Below are positions 5,327-37,583 of a stretch of DNA of 64,000 nt, piece by piece (the first letter of the stretch is position 1; every line of letters starts with the position of its first letter). Source of the stretch: Yersinia kristensenii (GTDB lineage: Bacteria > Pseudomonadota > Gammaproteobacteria > Enterobacterales > Enterobacteriaceae). A program made the translations under genes and the position numbers. The stretch lies in NCBI RefSeq assembly GCF_900460525.1, contig NZ_UHIY01000001.1, positions 2,914,001 to 2,978,000 of the forward strand, given 5' to 3'. Under the pieces are notes generated by a model. That model searched no databases. It saw nothing but the letters and a program-made list of their open reading frames with translations, and was not told the origin of the DNA.

Positions 5327-6544
5327 TCAAATTGCAGGGGTGCTGGCTGCTGGCTCTTCTTGTCTTTTAGCCAGTTGGTAGCCGCGATAGAAGAATGCCA
5401 GCCCCAAAATAGCCGCCACAATTAGCATATAGAACATCATTTGTGGTGCCGTATACGCTAACAAAAAGCCGCAAAGTACCGGATTAGCTGCACCGCCTAA
5501 CTGGCCGAGATTCTGTACTCCATAGTAACTGCCTTTAAGATTTGCTGGGGCAATAAAATCGATAAACAGGTATTCGACCGGGATAACAATAATCTCACCT
5601 AATGAGAAAATCGCCATTGCCAGCATCCACACTGGAATTGACTGCTGAGCCACCATAAATCCGAACAAACCAATAATAAAGAACAGTGTGCCGAGCATCA
5701 GCCAGCGCATTAAATTCTGTTGATTCATACGGCGACTTAATAGGTATTGTAAGGTAATGACAATGACGGCATTGACCGTCATCACTGCACCAATCACTTG
5801 ATAAGCAAATTTGGCATCAGACACGGTAATCAGGTATTGAGATAAGTAGCCGGAGAACTGGCCAAAAACCACTGCACTGAGCATGCTCCCAATAGTGAAA
5901 TAAATCAGCCGTTTATCATGGCGCAGAATACGGAATGTCTGGCGGAAATCTGGCACTGATTCGGTCTGTGTCTGTTCAGCGACCGACATATCAGCGCTGT
6001 TTATTCTGAATTTCAAAGTGATGGCCACCAATAACGCCAGTATCCCCGAAATGATAAAAGGAACTTGCGGCCCCATGCTGACCACCAAAACACCCAATGC
6101 CGGGCCGATCGCCCAGCCAACATTCACTAGGGTGTAGTTAGCCGAGAAAGCTTTAATGCGCTCATTAACCGGTAGCCAGTCAGCAAAACAGGCTTTAATA
6201 GCAATAGCGTAGACCGAGTAGGCCGAGTGCAACAGCGCCAGAATCAGGATAACCCACGCTGGGTGCTCAACCCACGGCAAGCTAAAAAAGGTCACTGAGA
6301 ATAGGGTGACGGCTAGCAGAATCAACTGTTTTTTGTTGAATTTGTCCACCAGATAACCGCCGTACAAACTGGTGAAAATACCTAAGGTTAAACTCGCCCC
6401 AAGGACTAACCCAACCTTATCGGGAGCCAACTGAAAATGCTCGGCCAAATAGATGGTGATAAAGGGGAGTGTGACGGCTCGCCCAATGGTCAAGACCAAT
6501 GAGGCAATCAGCAGATTAGTGACACGCGATGGAAATCCTTTCAT
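5327..6544 (-). CDS. MFS transporter, YdeE-like
   Basis: Twelve-helix major facilitator family efflux-type transporter of 405 residues. The N-terminal half opens with LTIGRAVTLPFITIYL and has the family A-motif-like GGYLVDKFNKKQLILL in the loop after helix 2 (about residues 62-77), followed by the second half from about residue 210. The overall pattern (IGRAxTLPFxTIYL, NYTLVNVGWAIGPALG, GEIIxxPxEYLxIDFIAP) resembles E. coli YdeE, described as a dipeptide/arabinose exporter, more than MdtH. Substrate cannot be read from sequence. Monocistronic, ATG 6544. Confidence 0.85.
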   Translation of the reverse strand: MKGFPSRVTNLLIASLVLTIGRAVTLPFITIYLAEHFQLAPDKVGLVLGASLTLGIFTSLYGGYLVDKFNKKQLILLAVTLFSVTFFSLPWVEHPAWVILILALLHSAYSVYAIAIKACFADWLPVNERIKAFSANYTLVNVGWAIGPALGVLVVSMGPQVPFIISGILALLVAITLKFRINSADMSVAEQTQTESVPDFRQTFRILRHDKRLIYFTIGSMLSAVVFGQFSGYLSQYLITVSDAKFAYQVIGAVMTVNAVIVITLQYLLSRRMNQQNLMRWLMLGTLFFIIGLFGFMVAQQSIPVWMLAMAIFSLGEIIVIPVEYLFIDFIAPANLKGSYYGVQNLGQLGGAANPVLCGFLLAYTAPQMMFYMLIVAAILGLAFFYRGYQLAKRQEEPAASTPAI

Positions 6545-6814: not shown

Positions 6815-8068
6815 TTAACCTAAATATTCGATGATAGATAAGCCACCATTATAATCGGTGCTGTAGATAATCCCTTGGGCATCAACAAACACATCACATG
6901 ACTGAATAACTTGTGGGCGACTGGGCCGTTTATCCATCATTTTTTCCGGTGCCGCAGGCACTAAAGCCCCTGTTTCCTTGGGTTGATAGGGGTTGCTGAT
7001 ATCATAAGCACGAACCCCGGCATTCTGGTAGGTCGCAAAAATTAGCGTTGAGCTGATAAAACTACCCGGCCGATTTTCATGCAAATTATGTGGGCCAAAA
7101 TGAGCGCCTTTTTTCACATAATCCTGCTCATCAGGTACCGGGAAAGTTGAGATACTGACCGGATTGATCGGCTCGCGAATGTCGAATAGCCAGATATGCT
7201 TCTCGCCATCTTCTTGGTTATCCAGCACCGCTTCATCTAGCACCACCAATAAATTGCGGTCGGGCAGGGGTAACGCGGTATGTGTACCACCGCCAAAAGG
7301 TGGGCTCCAGTTACGATGACTGATCAGCTTTGGCTCCGAGCGGTCGCTGACATCCAACAACGTCAGGCCACCATCGCGCCAACTGCCATATGCCGTGTCG
7401 CCGCTGATAATGGCATGATGCAATGCATAACGTTTACCATCCGGCCAAGTGGCTTGCTCACCCGCCGCAGTATGCATGCCGGGTAAAGCATACCGGCCAG
7501 CGACCTGCGGTTTTTGTGGGTCAGCCAAGTCAATGGTCAGGAAGATATAATCACTGTAGCCATCTAACAGCGCAGAAACATAAGCCCAGCGCCCGCCGAC
7601 ATACCAGATGCGGTGGATACCAATACCATCAAGTGGCAGGAAACTTATCTCGCGCGGCTTATCTGGCGTTGAAATATCAAAAACACGTAAACCGGCACTC
7701 CAACCGCGCCCTTCTTGCCGGGTACTGATCGTTTGGGCGACTGATTGGGTGTAATACACTTTCTCTTCGGCAAAACTGGCATCAGCAAAGAGATCGCGGG
7801 CATTAATCACCAGTAGCAGGTCATCATGGGCCTGTAAGTGTACATTCCAGGTATTGGGCGGTGCGGCGATAAAACCTGCGGGACGGGGGTTTTTTGCATC
7901 ACGAACATCAATAATGGATACGCCCTGCGACACCATATGGCCGACATAGGCGTAACCACGATGCACCATCACCTGTACCCCATCGGGTTTACCGCCCTGA
8001 TCGCTATGACCAATCAGCCGCATATTGCGGCTGTATTCAGGTGTCGGCAAGACTCCTTGCGCTGCCAT
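6815..8068 (-). CDS. LVIVD-repeat beta-propeller protein
   Basis: Protein of 417 residues built of repeated blades of the type ...GYAYVGHMVSQGVSIIDVRDAKNPRPAG, AGLRVFDISTPDKPREI, GGLTLLDVSDRSEPKLI and AGVRAYDISNPYQPKET. This is the LVIVD repeat, in which each unit ends in a hydrophobic strand, then D(V/I)S/R, then xPxxxG. The fold is expected to be a beta-propeller; the biochemical role of the family is not established. No signal peptide is visible (start MAAQGVLPTPEYS), in contrast to its periplasmic neighbour. It follows the binding-protein gene by 45 bp in the same direction and has GGAG ahead of ATG 8068, so the two form an operon under the upstream MetJ-like boxes. Confidence 0.85.
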   Translation of the reverse strand: MAAQGVLPTPEYSRNMRLIGHSDQGGKPDGVQVMVHRGYAYVGHMVSQGVSIIDVRDAKNPRPAGFIAAPPNTWNVHLQAHDDLLLVINARDLFADASFAEEKVYYTQSVAQTISTRQEGRGWSAGLRVFDISTPDKPREISFLPLDGIGIHRIWYVGGRWAYVSALLDGYSDYIFLTIDLADPQKPQVAGRYALPGMHTAAGEQATWPDGKRYALHHAIISGDTAYGSWRDGGLTLLDVSDRSEPKLISHRNWSPPFGGGTHTALPLPDRNLLVVLDEAVLDNQEDGEKHIWLFDIREPINPVSISTFPVPDEQDYVKKGAHFGPHNLHENRPGSFISSTLIFATYQNAGVRAYDISNPYQPKETGALVPAAPEKMMDKRPSRPQVIQSCDVFVDAQGIIYSTDYNGGLSIIEYLG

Positions 8069-8113: not shown

Positions 8114-9190
8114 TTACTGACCGTTTTTAGCGGCAAGGGTCGCAAACCAAGGCGAGTTGAAATCATCTGACTGGCCCCAGCCAGGAATGATTTTACTCAA
8201 ACCCGCGACGTTAACCGGGCCTGGCTGGCTTGCCAGCAGAGCTTGTGGAATAGAGGCTGCACGGAATTCATAGCTAGCGGGAGTTTCTTCACCGGCAATT
8301 TTCTTGGCAATCAGGCGCAAGTTAACCGCCCCAATCAGCTTAGGATCGACAGCAACACTGACTTTCCACGGGCTATTGGCTTCACGCATCAGTTGCAAAT
8401 CCTGATTCGAGATATCAATGCTATACAATTTGATTTCGGTACGGCCATTTTCCTGCAAGGCTTTATAAGCGCCCTGAGTAAAGGCATCCCAAGTGCCCCA
8501 GATAGCGTCGATTTTACCTTTTGGGTATTTTGCCAAGACGGCACCCACTTTATTCGCGGTATCACCTTGAACATCAGATGAAACAGCACCAATAGATTCC
8601 AGTTCAATAATGCCCGGATTTTGTTTCAGTAATGTCTGATAAGCGGCCTGGCGACGTTCCATTGGTGGGAACCCGGCAACCCAGAGTTTAATAATATTCG
8701 CTTTCCCGTTGAAGTCTTTAACTAACTGGCCGAAAGATTCGTTGGTCAGGGAGGCGTCGTCTTGTTGAGTCACAGTTAAACCGGGGATATCGCCCTGAAT
8801 GGCGGTATCAAATACAGACACCGCAATGCCGCTGGCGGCAATACGTTTAACCAGTTCAGTTGAATAAGGGTCACGGCCTTGGGAGAGGATAATCCCATCA
8901 TATTTTTGGCTGATGGCTTGGTTAACAAAGTCCTGAAAACGCGCATCATCGCCATTACTTAAGAAAGTATCGACTTTGAAACCAAGCTTTTTGCCCTCTT
9001 TCAATACACCAGACAAGAACTGTGTTGTGTTGTCGTCAGAACCTAAATTACGGATCACCGCAATTTTAATCTGCCCTTTATGGTTAGCTATTGCATCTGG
9101 AATAGGGGCGACTGTGGCGGTGTCCGCAGCAAATACTGGCAGTGCCGTCAGTAGGCTCAGGGCCAGTAATGGGGAAGCAATTTTTTTCAT
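8114..9190 (-). CDS. Sugar-type ABC transporter periplasmic binding protein (orphan)
   Basis: Type I periplasmic binding protein of the ribose/galactose (Peripla_BP_4) class, 358 residues. The N-terminus MKKIASPLLALSLLTALPVFA-ADT is a signal peptide with an Ala-X-Ala cleavage site. Two lobes follow: IKIAVIRNLGSDDNTTQFLSG opens the first, and AIWGTWDAFTQGAYKALQ with KLYSIDISNQDLQLM belongs to the second. I choose ATG 9190 (GGAG seven bases upstream) over an ATG five codons earlier. No permease or ATPase gene is adjacent; only the LVIVD gene follows. The ligand is unknown; the MetJ-like operator upstream hints at a methionine-linked compound. Confidence 0.85.
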   Translation of the reverse strand: MKKIASPLLALSLLTALPVFAADTATVAPIPDAIANHKGQIKIAVIRNLGSDDNTTQFLSGVLKEGKKLGFKVDTFLSNGDDARFQDFVNQAISQKYDGIILSQGRDPYSTELVKRIAASGIAVSVFDTAIQGDIPGLTVTQQDDASLTNESFGQLVKDFNGKANIIKLWVAGFPPMERRQAAYQTLLKQNPGIIELESIGAVSSDVQGDTANKVGAVLAKYPKGKIDAIWGTWDAFTQGAYKALQENGRTEIKLYSIDISNQDLQLMREANSPWKVSVAVDPKLIGAVNLRLIAKKIAGEETPASYEFRAASIPQALLASQPGPVNVAGLSKIIPGWGQSDDFNSPWFATLAAKNGQ

Positions 9191-9249
9191 CTGGAACTCC
9201 GTCATGGTGTTGATATGTTATGCAATGTGTACGTTGCTATCATTATTAT

Positions 9250-9281
9250 GGCTATCTTTGTGTCTAGACGTCTATTTGTCT
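9250..9281 (-). promoter_or_regulatory. Four tandem met boxes (MetJ operator candidate)
   Basis: MetJ binds tandem 8-bp met boxes with consensus AGACGTCT. Here consecutive octamers read GGCTATCT (9250), TTGTGTCT (9258), AGACGTCT (9266, perfect 8/8) and ATTTGTCT (9274). The last five bases match the consensus well in three of four, and TCT recurs exactly every 8 bp. The core GTCTAGACGTCT (9262-9273) equals 12 bases of the doubled consensus. The array lies 60-91 bp upstream of the binding-protein ATG, where it could cover the promoter. The only other candidate target is the plus-strand gene at 9647, 365 bp away. Confidence 0.7.
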
Positions 9282-9646: not shown

Positions 9647-10492
9647 ATGGGTAAAATTAGCAACCTATATAAATTCAGAAAGGATAGCGTTGAAATGGCG
9701 CAAATGAATTTAGATTATCTAATCAAAAATGGATTTATTGATAATCCCATTTGCCGTTATATGTCGCGTAGTGAATTTTTCTTTCTCTTTTTCCGTTATT
9801 TATTCGCATTAATGGTCATTGTATTTCTAGTAACGGTTTTATTTCCTGATTTGACTGATGAAGTTTTGTACTTTTCAGTGTCGTCCTTCTTTGCCGTGCT
9901 TTCATTGGTGTTAGTGCTACCTTGCTCATACCGCTTGGCCAGCCAAAAGTTAAGTCCTTATTTATTAATGTTCCACGTTCTTCCGTTCGCTTGTTATTTT
10001 TCGTATGGTTTATTGACGTTTTTCTTATTGGGTTCATTTTTACTTTATCTGATATTTATCAATATTTTTGACATAAAACCACTCACATGCGAACGTAGAA
10101 AACAATGGGCTGCTGCTTTACCTAACGAATATCCATTCGGATTGGCATTGATCAGTTTTAGTTTATTATATCTAAGCTTTTTTCTGTTATTTGAGTTAGA
10201 TGATGCCGTTATTGCGCTAATGATGTTGTCATGGATTTTCTTTTTATTGGCTAAATGGTATTGGCCGGTGGTGGCATTAAATATCGTGGGAGCCGTCGGT
10301 TTATTTTGGTTTTTCTCGTCAGGATTTGTGGAAGTAAAGCATCATAAGAATATTATTATCGATGCACTTATTAAGGTTTCTTTACTGGACAGTATTTTAT
10401 TTCTAATTTTCTCACTCAGTTTATTTATTAATATCTTATTTTGGCTGGAAGCTAGACAACGTGAACAGCAACCTATCGTGCATAGAGAGTAA
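9647..10492 (+). CDS. Unknown polytopic membrane protein
   Basis: I do not recognise this 281-residue protein. It has a soluble N-terminal stretch of about 40 residues and roughly eight hydrophobic segments (about residues 44-66, 74-92, 104-121, 122-142, 163-182, 187-203, 205-225, 246-267), then a short charged tail (EARQREQQPIVHRE). No transporter or enzyme motif stands out. The gene is visibly AT-rich and rich in TTT/TTA codons, unlike metG beside it, suggesting foreign origin or relaxed constraint. An AAGGA element precedes ATG 9647. It ends against the metG terminator, which is two-sided and may serve both. Confidence 0.6.
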   Translation: MGKISNLYKFRKDSVEMAQMNLDYLIKNGFIDNPICRYMSRSEFFFLFFRYLFALMVIVFLVTVLFPDLTDEVLYFSVSSFFAVLSLVLVLPCSYRLASQKLSPYLLMFHVLPFACYFSYGLLTFFLLGSFLLYLIFINIFDIKPLTCERRKQWAAALPNEYPFGLALISFSLLYLSFFLLFELDDAVIALMMLSWIFFLLAKWYWPVVALNIVGAVGLFWFFSSGFVEVKHHKNIIIDALIKVSLLDSILFLIFSLSLFINILFWLEARQREQQPIVHRE

Positions 10493-32690: not shown

Positions 32691-32779
32691 TGATATAGAG
32701 CAATTATTAAGTTACATTCATTGGTGTAGGTTATTAGTATGGAGTGTGTGGCGGTATGAACCGGTCGAGGGCAATTGAG

Positions 32780-33607
32780 ATGAAGAAAATAGCCATTATT
32801 GGATTGGGCTGGCTAGGTATGCCGTTGGCACAATCATTGGTGCGTCGTGGAATTGAGGTCGTGGGGAGTAAAACCACACCGGATGGCGTCGAAGCTGCCA
32901 GAATGAGCGGGATAAATTGCTTTCAATTGCAACTGACACCCGAGTTGCTTTGTGACCCGGATGATCTGGCACAACTGATGACGGTGGATGCGCTGGTTAT
33001 TACCTTACCCGCCAGCCGCACGACGGGGGGCGGCGCACAGTATTTTCAAGCGGTACAGATGGTGGTCGATAGCGCACTGGCGTTTGGTGTGCCGCGCATT
33101 ATTTTTACCAGCTCGACTTCTGTGTATGGCGAAACTCGGGGCCGAATTAAAGAAAGTTCACCGCTGCAACCGGTGACCACTGCCGGCAAAACGCTGGCAG
33201 AACTTGAACTTTGGCTGCATAAATTACCCAATACTTCGGTGGATATTTTGCGTCTGGCGGGGTTGGTGGGGGCGGAACGCCATCCTGGGCGATTCCTTGC
33301 GGGTAAAACCGATGTGAAAGGCGGCTCGCAGGGGGTGAATCTGGTGCATCAGGAAGATGTCATCTCTGCCATCGAACTGCTGCTTAATCTCCCCAGAGGC
33401 GGGCATATTTATAATTTGTGTGCGCCGATTCACCCACGAAAACGTGATTTTTACCCCGAGTGCGCCCGTGCTTTAGAACTGACTCCGCCCGAGTTTGCGT
33501 CTGAAGATATTGAAGAACCCATTCGAGAGATTGATGGCAGTAAGATTTGCAGTGAGTTGGGGTTTGAGTATCAGTATCCAGACCCAAATCGAATGCCTTT
33601 AAATTAA
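32780..33607 (+). CDS. yeeZ: YeeZ, NAD-dependent epimerase-like SDR protein
   Basis: Extended short-chain dehydrogenase of 275 residues (E. coli YeeZ 274). The Rossmann motif IIGLGWLGMPLAQSL is at the N-terminus, FTSSTSVYGETRG in the middle holds the family Ser-Tyr region, and ILRLAGLVGxxRHPGRFLAGK follows. The natural substrate is not known. I start at ATG 32780 (MKKIAIIGLGWLG), which matches E. coli; upstream in-frame starts add 12 non-conserved residues. Divergent from the his operon, the same neighbourhood as in E. coli. Confidence 0.93.
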   Translation: MKKIAIIGLGWLGMPLAQSLVRRGIEVVGSKTTPDGVEAARMSGINCFQLQLTPELLCDPDDLAQLMTVDALVITLPASRTTGGGAQYFQAVQMVVDSALAFGVPRIIFTSSTSVYGETRGRIKESSPLQPVTTAGKTLAELELWLHKLPNTSVDILRLAGLVGAERHPGRFLAGKTDVKGGSQGVNLVHQEDVISAIELLLNLPRGGHIYNLCAPIHPRKRDFYPECARALELTPPEFASEDIEEPIREIDGSKICSELGFEYQYPDPNRMPLN

Positions 33608-33632
33608 GCCTATTATCGGCTACTGCGCGTCG

Positions 33633-33716
33633 TCATCCTGAGATTGTGCAGTGCCCGTACTCCTCACGTACTGGGTGTACGCTCCGGGTACTGCGCGCTG
33701 TACGCACTCAGTATGA
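33633..33716. repeat. 84-bp imperfect palindrome after yeeZ
   Basis: The termini TCATCCTGAG (33633-33642) and CTCAGTATGA (33707-33716) are inverted copies (9/10). Inside, GCAGTGCCC (33648-33656) matches GGGTACTGC (33686-33694), and GTAC-containing arms flank the centre. It lies between the convergent yeeZ and ABC permease genes and could end both transcripts or be a mobile palindromic unit. Confidence 0.65.
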
Positions 33717-33780
33717 CTTAGCTCGCTACGCCTTGAATGGATGGCATTGAAAACATTACGAAATAAGAATCAATGCCCAA

Positions 33781-34779
33781 TCATCGCTTCTGATGAATAT
33801 AAGTCAGGGCTAAGGCCAGCGCCAGAACCCCCCCTTTGATAATATCCATTGCGTAGTAAGGTACTGACAGCATCACCAGCCCGTTTTGCAACACACCGAG
33901 GATTACCGCGCCAATTAAGGTGCCGAAAGCATTGGGTTTGCCGGAGCCCGCAAGTGAAAAGCCAATATAGGCGGCGGCTACGGCGTCCATCAGGTAACCG
34001 CCACCGGCGTTGACTTGTGACGAGCCAATGCGCGACGCCAGTAAAATCCCGCCCAGTGCCGCTAATAGAGATGAAAATACATAAGCCAGCACCCGATAAC
34101 GCAGGGTACGGATACCCGCTAGCCGCGCCGCTTCTGGATTACCACCAATGGCATACATCCGGCGGCCATGTTTGGTCAGTGACAAATACAATTGCACCAC
34201 AATAGTGACCGCCAACATGATAATCACGATGACTGGCACTTGGCCCAGCGCTGAAAACATCTCAGGAATGACGCCCTCCGCCATATCGCCGCTCGGCAGT
34301 AACATATTCTGTGTGATAGAGCCGCCGTAGCTGTACGTCATCGCCACGCCCTGAATGACAAACAGACTGGCGAGGGTCGCTAGCATATCGGGGATCTTCA
34401 ACACCACAATCAGAAATGCGTTAAACAAACCCACCAGAGTACAAATCAGTAAAGTCAGTATGATGGCTCCGGTGGTGCCAAAGCCGTACCAGACAAATAA
34501 CGACACCACGATGGCATTGGCTAGCGAGGCGGTCGAACCGACCGATAAGTCAAAACCTCCCACCGACAAGGAGATCGACACCCCGATAGCAATCACTGTC
34601 ACGATGGCAATAGATCGTAATATATTGATGATATTGTTTGGGTCGAGGAAGTTATCTGAGGCCAGACCAAACAGCGCGATTAGCGCCACAACGGTGAGCA
34701 ACATCCCCCATTTGTAGAGAAAATCAAACAACTGGTGACGCCATGGCTGCGCGTCTGGCAGGGGTATTTCTTTGCTCAC
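33781..34779 (-). CDS. Sugar ABC transporter permease (RbsC type)
   Basis: Inner-membrane permease of the ribose/AraH class, 332 residues with about ten hydrophobic segments. Family landmarks are VGGFDLSVGSTASLANAIV (about residues 72-90), the EAA-like loop ...NPEAARLAGI (about 215) and GGYLMDAVAAAYIGFSLAGSGKPN. It starts at GTG 34779, overlapping the ATPase stop (GTGA), so it is coupled to that gene. A homodimer is expected, since only one permease gene is present. No binding protein is encoded beside it; the substrate is unknown. Confidence 0.9.
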   Translation of the reverse strand: MSKEIPLPDAQPWRHQLFDFLYKWGMLLTVVALIALFGLASDNFLDPNNIINILRSIAIVTVIAIGVSISLSVGGFDLSVGSTASLANAIVVSLFVWYGFGTTGAIILTLLICTLVGLFNAFLIVVLKIPDMLATLASLFVIQGVAMTYSYGGSITQNMLLPSGDMAEGVIPEMFSALGQVPVIVIIMLAVTIVVQLYLSLTKHGRRMYAIGGNPEAARLAGIRTLRYRVLAYVFSSLLAALGGILLASRIGSSQVNAGGGYLMDAVAAAYIGFSLAGSGKPNAFGTLIGAVILGVLQNGLVMLSVPYYAMDIIKGGVLALALALTYIHQKR

Positions 34780-36290
34780 TGAGGGGTTCCTCCGGTTGAA
34801 AATAAGAGTAATGTTTCTTCATCGACATCTGCGGCATTCAGCTCGGCAACAATACGCCCATCCCACAGCACACAGATACGAGAGCATAAACCGACCAATT
34901 CTGAGAATTCACCGGATGCATAAATAATGCCTTTTCCTTGTTGTGCTAACCCATCAATCAGAGTGAACAGATCCTGCTTGGCCTTGATGTCCACGCCTTT
35001 AGTTGGCTCATCAAAAATTAATACCTGCGCATCACCGCGCAACCATTTACCGATCGCCACTTTCTGCTGATTTCCTCCTGACAAGCGGGCGAGTTTTTGC
35101 TGCGGTGAGGAAGTTCGCACTCCCAGGCGTGCAATCAGTTCCTTGGCCCAGCGCAACTCTTGGCGGCGGCTAAAAATACTCCAGTGGGAAAAACTGTCAT
35201 CGGCTGCCACACTCAGGTTCATTGGGATACCTTCGTGAATGAAAATGCCCTCTTTGCGTCGTTCTTCGGGCACTAAAGCTAGCCCCTGTGCGACGGAACG
35301 GTCTGGTGAGCGCGGCTTCCACGGTTTACCCAGTAATTCACCCTGATCAACACGGCTCGGCGTAGCACCGAACAAGGCTTTACACAATTCGGTTTTACCC
35401 GCGCCCGCTAGCCCGGCAATCCCTAATATTTCCCCTTCACGGAGTGTTAGGGAGATATCACATAATTTATGTTGGTCGTGTAACCCACTGACTGATAGCA
35501 ATATTTTGTCACTAATGGCGGCCCGCCGTGGTGGGAAAATATCATCCAAAGTATGGCCGAGCATCTTTTCGACAATTTGCTCACCACTCAGGTCACCCAT
35601 TGCATCATGGCTGACTTTGCGACCATCGCGTAATACCGTCAATTGATCGCAAATCTCGCGCAATTCATGAATACGATGCGAAATGAAAACAATGGCTATC
35701 CCTTCGGATTGCAAGCGGCGAACCACTTTAAACAGGCGCGCACTCTCTTCTTGATCCAACGGCGCGGTGGGTTCATCCAAAATGAGAAAACGGCATTGAT
35801 GGGAAAGGGCGCGGGCCAATAGCACCTGTTGTTTCTCCGCCAATGTGCAGGATTCCAGGCGCTGGCGCGCATTCAACTTGAGGTCAAGCTGCCCGAGTAG
35901 TGCTTCTGCCTGACGATAAAGTTGCGGCCAATTAAACAGATGCCCCTGTTCAGCCAGCGTATCCAGCATGATATTTTCCGCCACAGACAGGGTAGGGATC
36001 AGTGCAACATCAACCTCTTGCTGAACCACATGGATACCGTGCTGCTTTGCTTGACGGGGGGAGTGAATATCTACCTGCTGACCATCAATATAGATCTCGC
36101 CGCGATAGTGACTGTGTGCGCCGGAAAGAATCGCCATCAGCGTTGATTTCCCTGCGCCATTAGCACCGACTAGCGCATGAGTAGACCCACCTTCCAGTGT
36201 GAAATCAACCTGTTGTAGAGCATGGAATCCAGAAAATGAGATAGAGATATTCCGCATCTCAAGGCGGGAGGATGAGGTGAGACTGGACAT
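34776..36290 (-). CDS. Sugar ABC transporter ATPase (RbsA type, two ABC domains)
   Basis: Fused double ATPase of 504 residues typical of ribose-class importers. The first domain has Walker A GANGAGKST (about residue 43) and Walker B FLILDEPTA. The second has a degenerate Walker A GLAGAGKTE (about residue 290) and a good signature LSGGNQQKVAIGKWL followed by VLIFDEPTKGVD. ATG 36290. First gene of a two-gene unit with the permease; divergent from hcxA across 201 bp. A binding protein is missing locally. Confidence 0.92.
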   Translation of the reverse strand: MSSLTSSSRLEMRNISISFSGFHALQQVDFTLEGGSTHALVGANGAGKSTLMAILSGAHSHYRGEIYIDGQQVDIHSPRQAKQHGIHVVQQEVDVALIPTLSVAENIMLDTLAEQGHLFNWPQLYRQAEALLGQLDLKLNARQRLESCTLAEKQQVLLARALSHQCRFLILDEPTAPLDQEESARLFKVVRRLQSEGIAIVFISHRIHELREICDQLTVLRDGRKVSHDAMGDLSGEQIVEKMLGHTLDDIFPPRRAAISDKILLSVSGLHDQHKLCDISLTLREGEILGIAGLAGAGKTELCKALFGATPSRVDQGELLGKPWKPRSPDRSVAQGLALVPEERRKEGIFIHEGIPMNLSVAADDSFSHWSIFSRRQELRWAKELIARLGVRTSSPQQKLARLSGGNQQKVAIGKWLRGDAQVLIFDEPTKGVDIKAKQDLFTLIDGLAQQGKGIIYASGEFSELVGLCSRICVLWDGRIVAELNAADVDEETLLLFSTGGTPQ

Positions 36291-36491: not shown

Positions 36492-37583
36492 ATGAGCACG
36501 AATGCAATCCGAGTGCAGGTGGGGCCTGCCAACTATTTTTCTTTTCCAGGCGCTATCGATAAGCTGAGTGAGTTTTATCCTCAAGCAGCACTGGAAAATG
36601 CGCTGTGGATCTATGGCGAGAGCGCCTTGGTGGCGGCCAGTGATTATCTGCCAGCGGTTTTCCATGCGCCGCAAGCGGTGCGGGCTTTATTTTCCACCCA
36701 TTGCAGTGAGTCTACTGTGGCTGATTTGGTGACAACTGCGGGCAGTGACCGACAAGTGGTGATCGGCATTGGCGGTGGGGCGGTATTGGATACCGCAAAA
36801 GTGGTGGCGCGTAAACTTGGGTTGCCGTTGGTAGCCATTCCCACTATCGCGGCAACCTGTGCGGCCTGGACCCCACTTTCTGTGTGGTATAGCGATGCCG
36901 GTCAAGCGCTGAGTTTTGAAATATTCAAAGATGCCAATCAGTTAGTGTTAGTCGAGCCGCGTATTATTTTGCAGGCACCCGTGGAATATCTGTTGGCGGG
37001 AATTGGCGATACTCTGGCGAAATGGTACGAAGCGGTGGTGCTAAGCCCACAACCGGAAAGATTATCTTTGACCGTTCGTTTGGGATTACAGGCCGCTTTG
37101 GACATTCGCAATGTGCTGCTTAAGCAGAGCGAATCTGCATTGCAGGCGGTGGAACAGGGGGAATTGACACAAGATTTTCTTGATGTAGTCGATGCGATTA
37201 TTGCCGGTGGAGGCATGGTTGGTGGGTTGGGCGAACGTTATACCCGTGTCGCGGCGGCCCATGCAGTACACAATGGCCTGACACTGTTGCCCCAGACTGA
37301 GCATTTCCTGCATGGTACCAAAGTCGCTTATGGAATTTTGGTTCAAACGGCGCTGCTGGAGCAGGATGAAGCATTGCAATCATTGATTGTGGCGTTTAAT
37401 AAATTAGGTTTACCAACGCATTTGGCTGCGCTGGATGTTGATATTAATGACCGTGATGCTATCGAGCGTGTGATTAGTCGAATTCTGAAGCCGAGCGAGT
37501 CAATTCATTATCTGCCTGTTGAGCTGAATTCAGACAAGATATGGGCAGCAATTGAGCGCGTAGAAATTGCTGCTCAGCACTGA
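36492..37583 (+). CDS. hcxA: HcxA (YbdH), hydroxycarboxylate dehydrogenase-like
   Basis: Iron/glycerol-dehydrogenase-family oxidoreductase of 363 residues, close throughout to E. coli YbdH, now HcxA, which reduces 2-oxo acids such as 2-oxobutanoate with NADPH. The cofactor motif VVIGIGGGAVLDTAK is near residue 95, and the metal-site and active-site region AIPTIAATCAAWTPLSVWY, GIGDTLAKWYEAV and AHAVHNGL are conserved. AAGGAACGC precedes ATG 36492. Divergent from the ABC ATPase, so a shared control region and a link to that substrate are possible; I cannot show it. Ends at a strong terminator. Confidence 0.9.
   Translation: MSTNAIRVQVGPANYFSFPGAIDKLSEFYPQAALENALWIYGESALVAASDYLPAVFHAPQAVRALFSTHCSESTVADLVTTAGSDRQVVIGIGGGAVLDTAKVVARKLGLPLVAIPTIAATCAAWTPLSVWYSDAGQALSFEIFKDANQLVLVEPRIILQAPVEYLLAGIGDTLAKWYEAVVLSPQPERLSLTVRLGLQAALDIRNVLLKQSESALQAVEQGELTQDFLDVVDAIIAGGGMVGGLGERYTRVAAAHAVHNGLTLLPQTEHFLHGTKVAYGILVQTALLEQDEALQSLIVAFNKLGLPTHLAALDVDINDRDAIERVISRILKPSESIHYLPVELNSDKIWAAIERVEIAAQH

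Follow-up and report, generated by a model that had tools for sequence, protein, structure and literature searches.

A stretch of 64,000 nucleotides from Yersinia kristensenii (contig NZ_UHIY01000001.1, positions 2,914,001 to 2,978,000 of the forward strand; hereafter the window) harbors the gene pair mtrB-mtrY, which is preceded by four tandem octamers resembling the binding site of the methionine repressor MetJ. MtrB displays a periplasmic binding protein fold and carries a leader peptide, while MtrY, whose gene starts 45 bp after mtrB, contains the LVIVD repeat PF08309 (33.9 bits, cut-off 20.2; COG5276). This gene order, a sugar-type binding protein followed by an LVIVD propeller, is as an earlier note on this DNA had described it. 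Since the leader peptide of MtrB begins at the ATG at 9190, this codon was chosen as the start of mtrB, which places the operator 59 bp from the gene. The corresponding permease and ATPase genes, mtrC and mtrA, as well as the divergently oriented ybdH, are encoded elsewhere in the window (Table 1).

Table 1. Positions of the putative MetJ operator and of the genes discussed (window coordinates)
Feature	Position	Strand	Remarks
MetJ operator, four octamers	9250..9281	-	box matches, shuffles, conservation in orthologues
mtrB, periplasmic binding protein of the predicted methylthioribose transporter	8114..9190	-	open reading frame (ORF) may start at 9205
mtrY, beta-propeller with LVIVD repeat; putative metal-dependent hydrolase of the cytosol	6815..8068	-	
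mtrC, permease	33781..34779	-	83% identical to the L022 permease directly upstream of mtrB; PF02653
mtrA, ATPase	34776..36290	-	PF00005, two stretches; in other genomes its relatives lie ahead of mtrC
ybdH, iron-containing alcohol dehydrogenase, divergent from mtrA	36492..37583	+	PF00465

In register, the octamers read GGCTATCT TTGTGTCT AGACGTCT ATTTGTCT, with TCT recurring each 8 bp, and match the met box AGACGTCT in 4, 4, 8 and 5 of 8 bases. The third octamer (9266-9273) is the only perfect met box in the 64 kb, and the entire run attains the top four-octamer score of the window (21/32), followed by two runs of 19, which represent the operator shifted by 8, and by a run of 18 at 7180 within the LVIVD gene. 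The window contains a single 16-base double box with at most 3 mismatches, against 0.06 expected, and 5 of 100 shuffles contain at least one. Moreover, dinucleotide shuffling of the 200 bp upstream of mtrB never reproduced the two-, three- or four-box score in 5000 attempts. Two or more tandem AGACGTCT-like octamers are thus found upstream of a gene, and MetJ itself is encoded in the same genome (PF01340, 193.5 bits, cut-off 25). A promoter scan of the operator region yielded 6 promoter-like sites compared to 6.6 in shuffles, and because the region is no richer in such sites than shuffled sequence, the two minus-strand sites that overlap the boxes were left unused.

Conservation of the boxes depends on the position of mtrB within its transcription unit. 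The order was represented by 295 genomes, 12 of which supplied a first sample of 13 close mtrB loci. A three-box score of at least 17/24 was obtained in six of these loci, none of which has mtrC directly upstream, whereas the score is 11 in the six loci where mtrC immediately precedes mtrB (the remaining locus, L019, scores 14). A second sample comprised 80 named mtrY loci (the best 80 of 524), 57 of which could be scored for boxes, the threshold being a score attained in at most 10 of 500 shuffles; in the other 23, 13 of them alpha- or betaproteobacterial, the scan detected no plus-strand mtrB ORF of more than 70% identity and more than 300 residues. Where mtrC lies within 150 nt upstream of mtrB, none of 27 loci reaches this threshold (the lowest count was 182/500), whereas 22 of the 30 loci lacking this arrangement do reach it. 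This constitutes an internal control: boxes occur where mtrB heads its unit and are absent where mtrB follows mtrC. The earlier note had proposed a search for the boxes upstream of Yersinia orthologues, and five other Yersinia loci (L015, L044-L047) all carry them.

The association of MetJ with mtrB and mtrY was published in 2011, hence the operator as such was already known. In that work (Augustus and Spicer, 2011; PMC3228920), mtrACB is assigned to the MetJ regulon as a probable methylthioribose transporter, with mtrB followed by 'mtrY', the role of which is called 'a mystery', and a repression ratio of at most 0.12 is given for a group including mtrB 'in E. coli, Yersinia or Klebsiella'. 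The genes, the place of the operator upstream of mtrB and the follower of mtrB (COG5276, mtrY) are the same as here, Yersinia is included, and there is no difference in kind between the two systems. The present work contributes the split layout of mtrB-mtrY and mtrA-mtrC in this window, controls by shuffling and by gene context, and evidence concerning MtrY. Passages of PMC4239095 likewise count methylthioribose uptake genes among those under MetJ control. Methylthioribose kinase is listed among genes of changed expression in PMC2631605, and salvage genes are upregulated under starvation in PMC5230779, the respective passages of both papers not touching the operator, while an mtrB of Pectobacterium is found among PhoPQ-controlled genes in a passage of PMC7843439. 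Within the one paper collection searched, PMC3228920 alone turned up with regard to the function of MtrY.

With respect to its ligand, MtrB is 97% identical to the protein of PDB entry 5ulb, and its second match is 4ry8, at a margin of 9.5 in Z score over the next. The latter, titled 5-methylthioribose transporter binding protein, stems from a distant species, Thermotoga lettingae, shares 30% identity with MtrB and represents its closest relative of known ligand class; the crystal presumably contains methylthioribose. In addition, a gene resembling S-methyl-5-thioribose kinase adjoins two of three distant homologues of mtrB (L026 and L028), while the 4 kb examined around the third, L027, contain no such kinase. 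The neighboring genes of L026 and L028 had been considered as distant LVIVD proteins, which was rejected since Pfam assigns them to kinases and the L028 protein has homologues that bear the name S-methyl-5-thioribose kinase. No second close mtrB was found in the genome, the sole other match being 28% identical. We infer, with good support from these relationships, that methylthioribose is the cargo of MtrB in this species, which is in line with the guess of the earlier note at a methylthioribose-type ligand.

The same note had taken MtrB for an orphan devoid of permease and ATPase. This is ruled out by a query with the MtrC of L022, which found the permease, with the ATPase beside it, 24.6 kb from mtrB-mtrY in the same window; the cognate permease and ATPase as well as mtnK are thus all encoded in the genome. 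In G258, the second Yersinia genome sampled, about 26 kb of a single contig separate mtrC from mtrB, and in G126, a member of another genus, the distance is about 476 kb. The two genes lie on different contigs in G198, G228 and G276 and are adjacent in G208 and G248. In G276, mtrB, mtrC and mtrY are located on three separate contigs (L023, L129, L135), hence mtrY is not beside the only close mtrB of this genome. Moreover, ybdH is found beside mtrA, mtrB or mtrY in relatives. In a Mangrovibacter record (L106), the mtrB at 6913-7983 is broken up into two ORFs, although matches to mtrY, mtrA, mtrC, mtnK and mtnA surround it.

Counted from mtrY, an mtrB-like gene lies within 400 bp upstream in 78 of the 80 loci, a sample that leans to close relatives as it comprises the best 80 of 524. 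In the other two, L058 and L067, mtrY adjoins ybdH without mtrB, and of 1000 shuffles of the mtrY-ybdH gap, 1 and 2, respectively, attain its three-box score. Counted from mtrB in the 13 loci of the first sample, mtrY is directly next in eight and not in four, while one locus reaches the contig end. In 13 loci from alphaproteobacteria (11) and betaproteobacteria (2), MtrY is still 68-71% identical, whereas the adjacent binding protein, as measured in nine of them, is only 26-32% identical. MtrY is therefore better preserved across proteobacterial classes than the adjoining transporter, and its function is probably more constrained than transport. For both binding proteins near mtrY in L116, 4ry8 is the best solved relative, exceeding 5ulb by 81 and 102 bits and all else by about 150 bits or more. 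Three of these alpha-/betaproteobacterial loci were scanned for further genes: in L115 and L116 the SfnB sulfur-acquisition oxidoreductase, NtaA/DmoA and the MsnO8 monooxygenase exceeded their cut-offs, and L120 contains a nucleoside-hydrolase-like gene scoring under its cut-off.

Unlike MtrB, MtrY is devoid of a hydrophobic leader, the best 12-residue mean in its first 45 residues being 1.2 compared to 2.3 in MtrB. Its structure was modeled with a predicted local distance difference test score (pLDDT) of 87.3 and a predicted template modeling score (pTM) of 0.90, and the first Foldseek match of this model is 5hrm (E 7.0e-17; next protein 1.7e-9), a phosphotriesterase (haloalkylphosphorus hydrolase, Sb-PTE) of Sphingobium sp. 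TCM1, which is about 80 residues longer and 22% identical to MtrY over 350 residues. Sb-PTE is described as a binuclear metal center in a seven-bladed propeller in the title of a reference cited in PMC11656708. A profile search also recovers 5hrm, at E 4.3e-13 with distant relatives included (A1) and at 1.7e-6 without them (A2), and MtrY thus shares both the fold and a detectable sequence relation with binuclear metal propeller hydrolases of the Sb-PTE type. Eight residues are invariant in 60 MtrY sequences (H44, H152, H217, H263, E279, H327, H330 and E331), six of which (H152, H217, H263, E279, H327 and H330) could fit the metal ligands of Sb-PTE by pattern, the repeats aliasing by one blade. 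When what we take to be these ligands (E201, H258, H389, E407 and H475) were placed on MtrY by local alignment, E201 and H389 fell in gaps and H258, E407 and H475 were paired with H199, Y41 and H323, respectively; H204 alone met an invariant MtrY histidine (H152). A residue-by-residue map of the ligands was dropped, since profile, sequence and local alignments alias by one blade. As a separate observation, one genome encodes three MtrY relatives of 36-43% identity (L041-L043), two of which flank an Amidohydro_2 gene, while L041 is divergent from a CobW-family gene. CobW-family proteins serve metal supply. These relatives hint at a wider enzyme family.

Combining these lines of evidence, the following mechanism is proposed. 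When S-adenosylmethionine is plentiful, MetJ would cover the tandem boxes and thereby switch off mtrB-mtrY. Upon shortage of methionine, MtrB would be made and capture external 5-methylthioribose in the periplasm, handing it over to the MtrC-MtrA permease/ATPase. Inside the cell, MtnK and the later Mtn enzymes would return methylthioribose to methionine, while MtrY, a candidate metal-dependent hydrolase of the cytosol, may cleave some derivative of the thiosugar that has been taken up. The operator and uptake half of this mechanism is well supported, and the MtrY half is a proposal. Overall, the explanation of 9250-9281 as the operator of an mtrB-mtrY unit within the methionine salvage regulon is very likely correct.

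Several findings weigh against this reading, and some of them would equally suit a chance match of the octamers at which MetJ exerts no action. Three of the four octamers are weak, and genome-wide the double-box pattern occurs at 11 places compared to 7 for a reversed control pattern, hence the two-box score alone constitutes weak evidence. In addition, the source species of the assayed mtrB operator is not stated in the available sections of PMC3228920, eight of the 30 loci in which mtrB heads its unit score below the threshold, and the locus counts are not independent since the loci are related. Two of the eight (L089 and L097) turned out by tblastn to have mtrC upstream, leaving L057, L063, L071, L079, L100 and L105 as true misses. 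Moreover, no boxes were detectable in the mtrA-ybdH gap of this genome (15/32, attained by 729 of 2000 shuffles), hence MetJ control seems to extend to only a part of the transporter; among nine ybdH-mtrA gaps chosen from other genera, six have a three-box score that no more than 11 of 1000 shuffles reach, and of the three falling short, those of L068 and L076 are shortened to 65 bp by ORF calls. On the other hand, seven of the 11 double-box places, corresponding to six loci, lie upstream of metF, metN, btuB, metA (in two registers), mtnA/mtnK and mtrB, while two of the other four belong to a phage-like region that is present twice, one lies in an integrase-like ORF and one in a pyruvate-kinase-like ORF (all genes at these places except mtnK were named by eye from translations). 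A chance match is further opposed by the shuffles, by the rank of the run as the best in the window, by boxes of the same register ahead of mtrB in relatives, which are absent where mtrB lies inside an operon, and by the repression by MetJ that has been published for an mtrB reporter, and is left with a very slight probability. The claim of the earlier note that the four octamers form a MetJ operator, one box being perfect, is thereby sustained: judged from its sequence, the element is a genuine MetJ operator, at which binding of MetJ is predicted. This confirms that in enteric bacteria the methionine repressor governs the import of a discarded by-product of methionine. Alternatively, MtrB might bind another sugar, such as ribose, allose or autoinducer-2, and MetJ control would reflect another link to activated-methyl metabolism. 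Ribose- and allose-binding proteins do belong to the Pfam family of MtrB and appear as weak NCBIfam matches (26 bits with a cut-off of 335, and 19 bits with one of 337), and given the relationship to 4ry8 and the neighboring kinase genes this alternative appears improbable.

The assignment of MtrY is subject to a more even debate. It may tentatively be regarded as an unrecognized cytosolic metal-dependent hydrolase of thiosugar salvage, carried along with methylthioribose-type transporters in gamma-, alpha- and betaproteobacteria. A hydrolase role is inferred from sequence and model, and there are arguments to the contrary: by Z score WD40 propellers match the MtrY fold equally well, the metal ligands cannot be aligned with confidence to those of Sb-PTE, and three relatives carry the source name 'signal peptide protein', at variance with a cytosolic location. 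A role as partner or sensor of the binding protein, as the earlier note had suggested, or as a non-catalytic scaffold, is rather unlikely, as MtrY has no leader, occurs twice without mtrB, is not adjacent to mtrB in four of 13 loci, retains its identity where the binding protein diverges, features invariant histidines and finds an enzyme as its first Foldseek match. If MtrY is indeed a hydrolase, it would act on a derivative entering with or formed from methylthioribose, e.g., methylthioribonolactone or an esterified form, and thus add a branch to methionine salvage. The protein whose role was deemed mysterious in 2011 thereby receives a concrete and testable proposal.

Further observations concern the genome and the surroundings of both gene pairs. 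L005 and L012 (G000:C1 near 4124965 and 3893001) share the same 101 bases, which contain a double met box with 2 mismatches, and are adjoined by ORFs that appear helicase-like and phage-like by eye. Between the ORF at 32744-33607 and mtrC, a G+C-rich, repeat-like stretch is discernible by eye (33620-33740). Downstream of mtrY, 5327-6544 (minus strand) encodes a major facilitator superfamily (MFS) transporter, nearest to YdeE and scoring below the cut-off of that family (345 vs 582 bits), and in L044-L047, too, mtrY is followed by an ORF of about this length. Divergent from mtrB, the plus-strand ORF at 9647-10492 encodes 281 residues that are apparently membrane-bound and match no Pfam or NCBIfam family; its counterpart is of equal length in L015, L044, L045 and L047 and shorter in L046.
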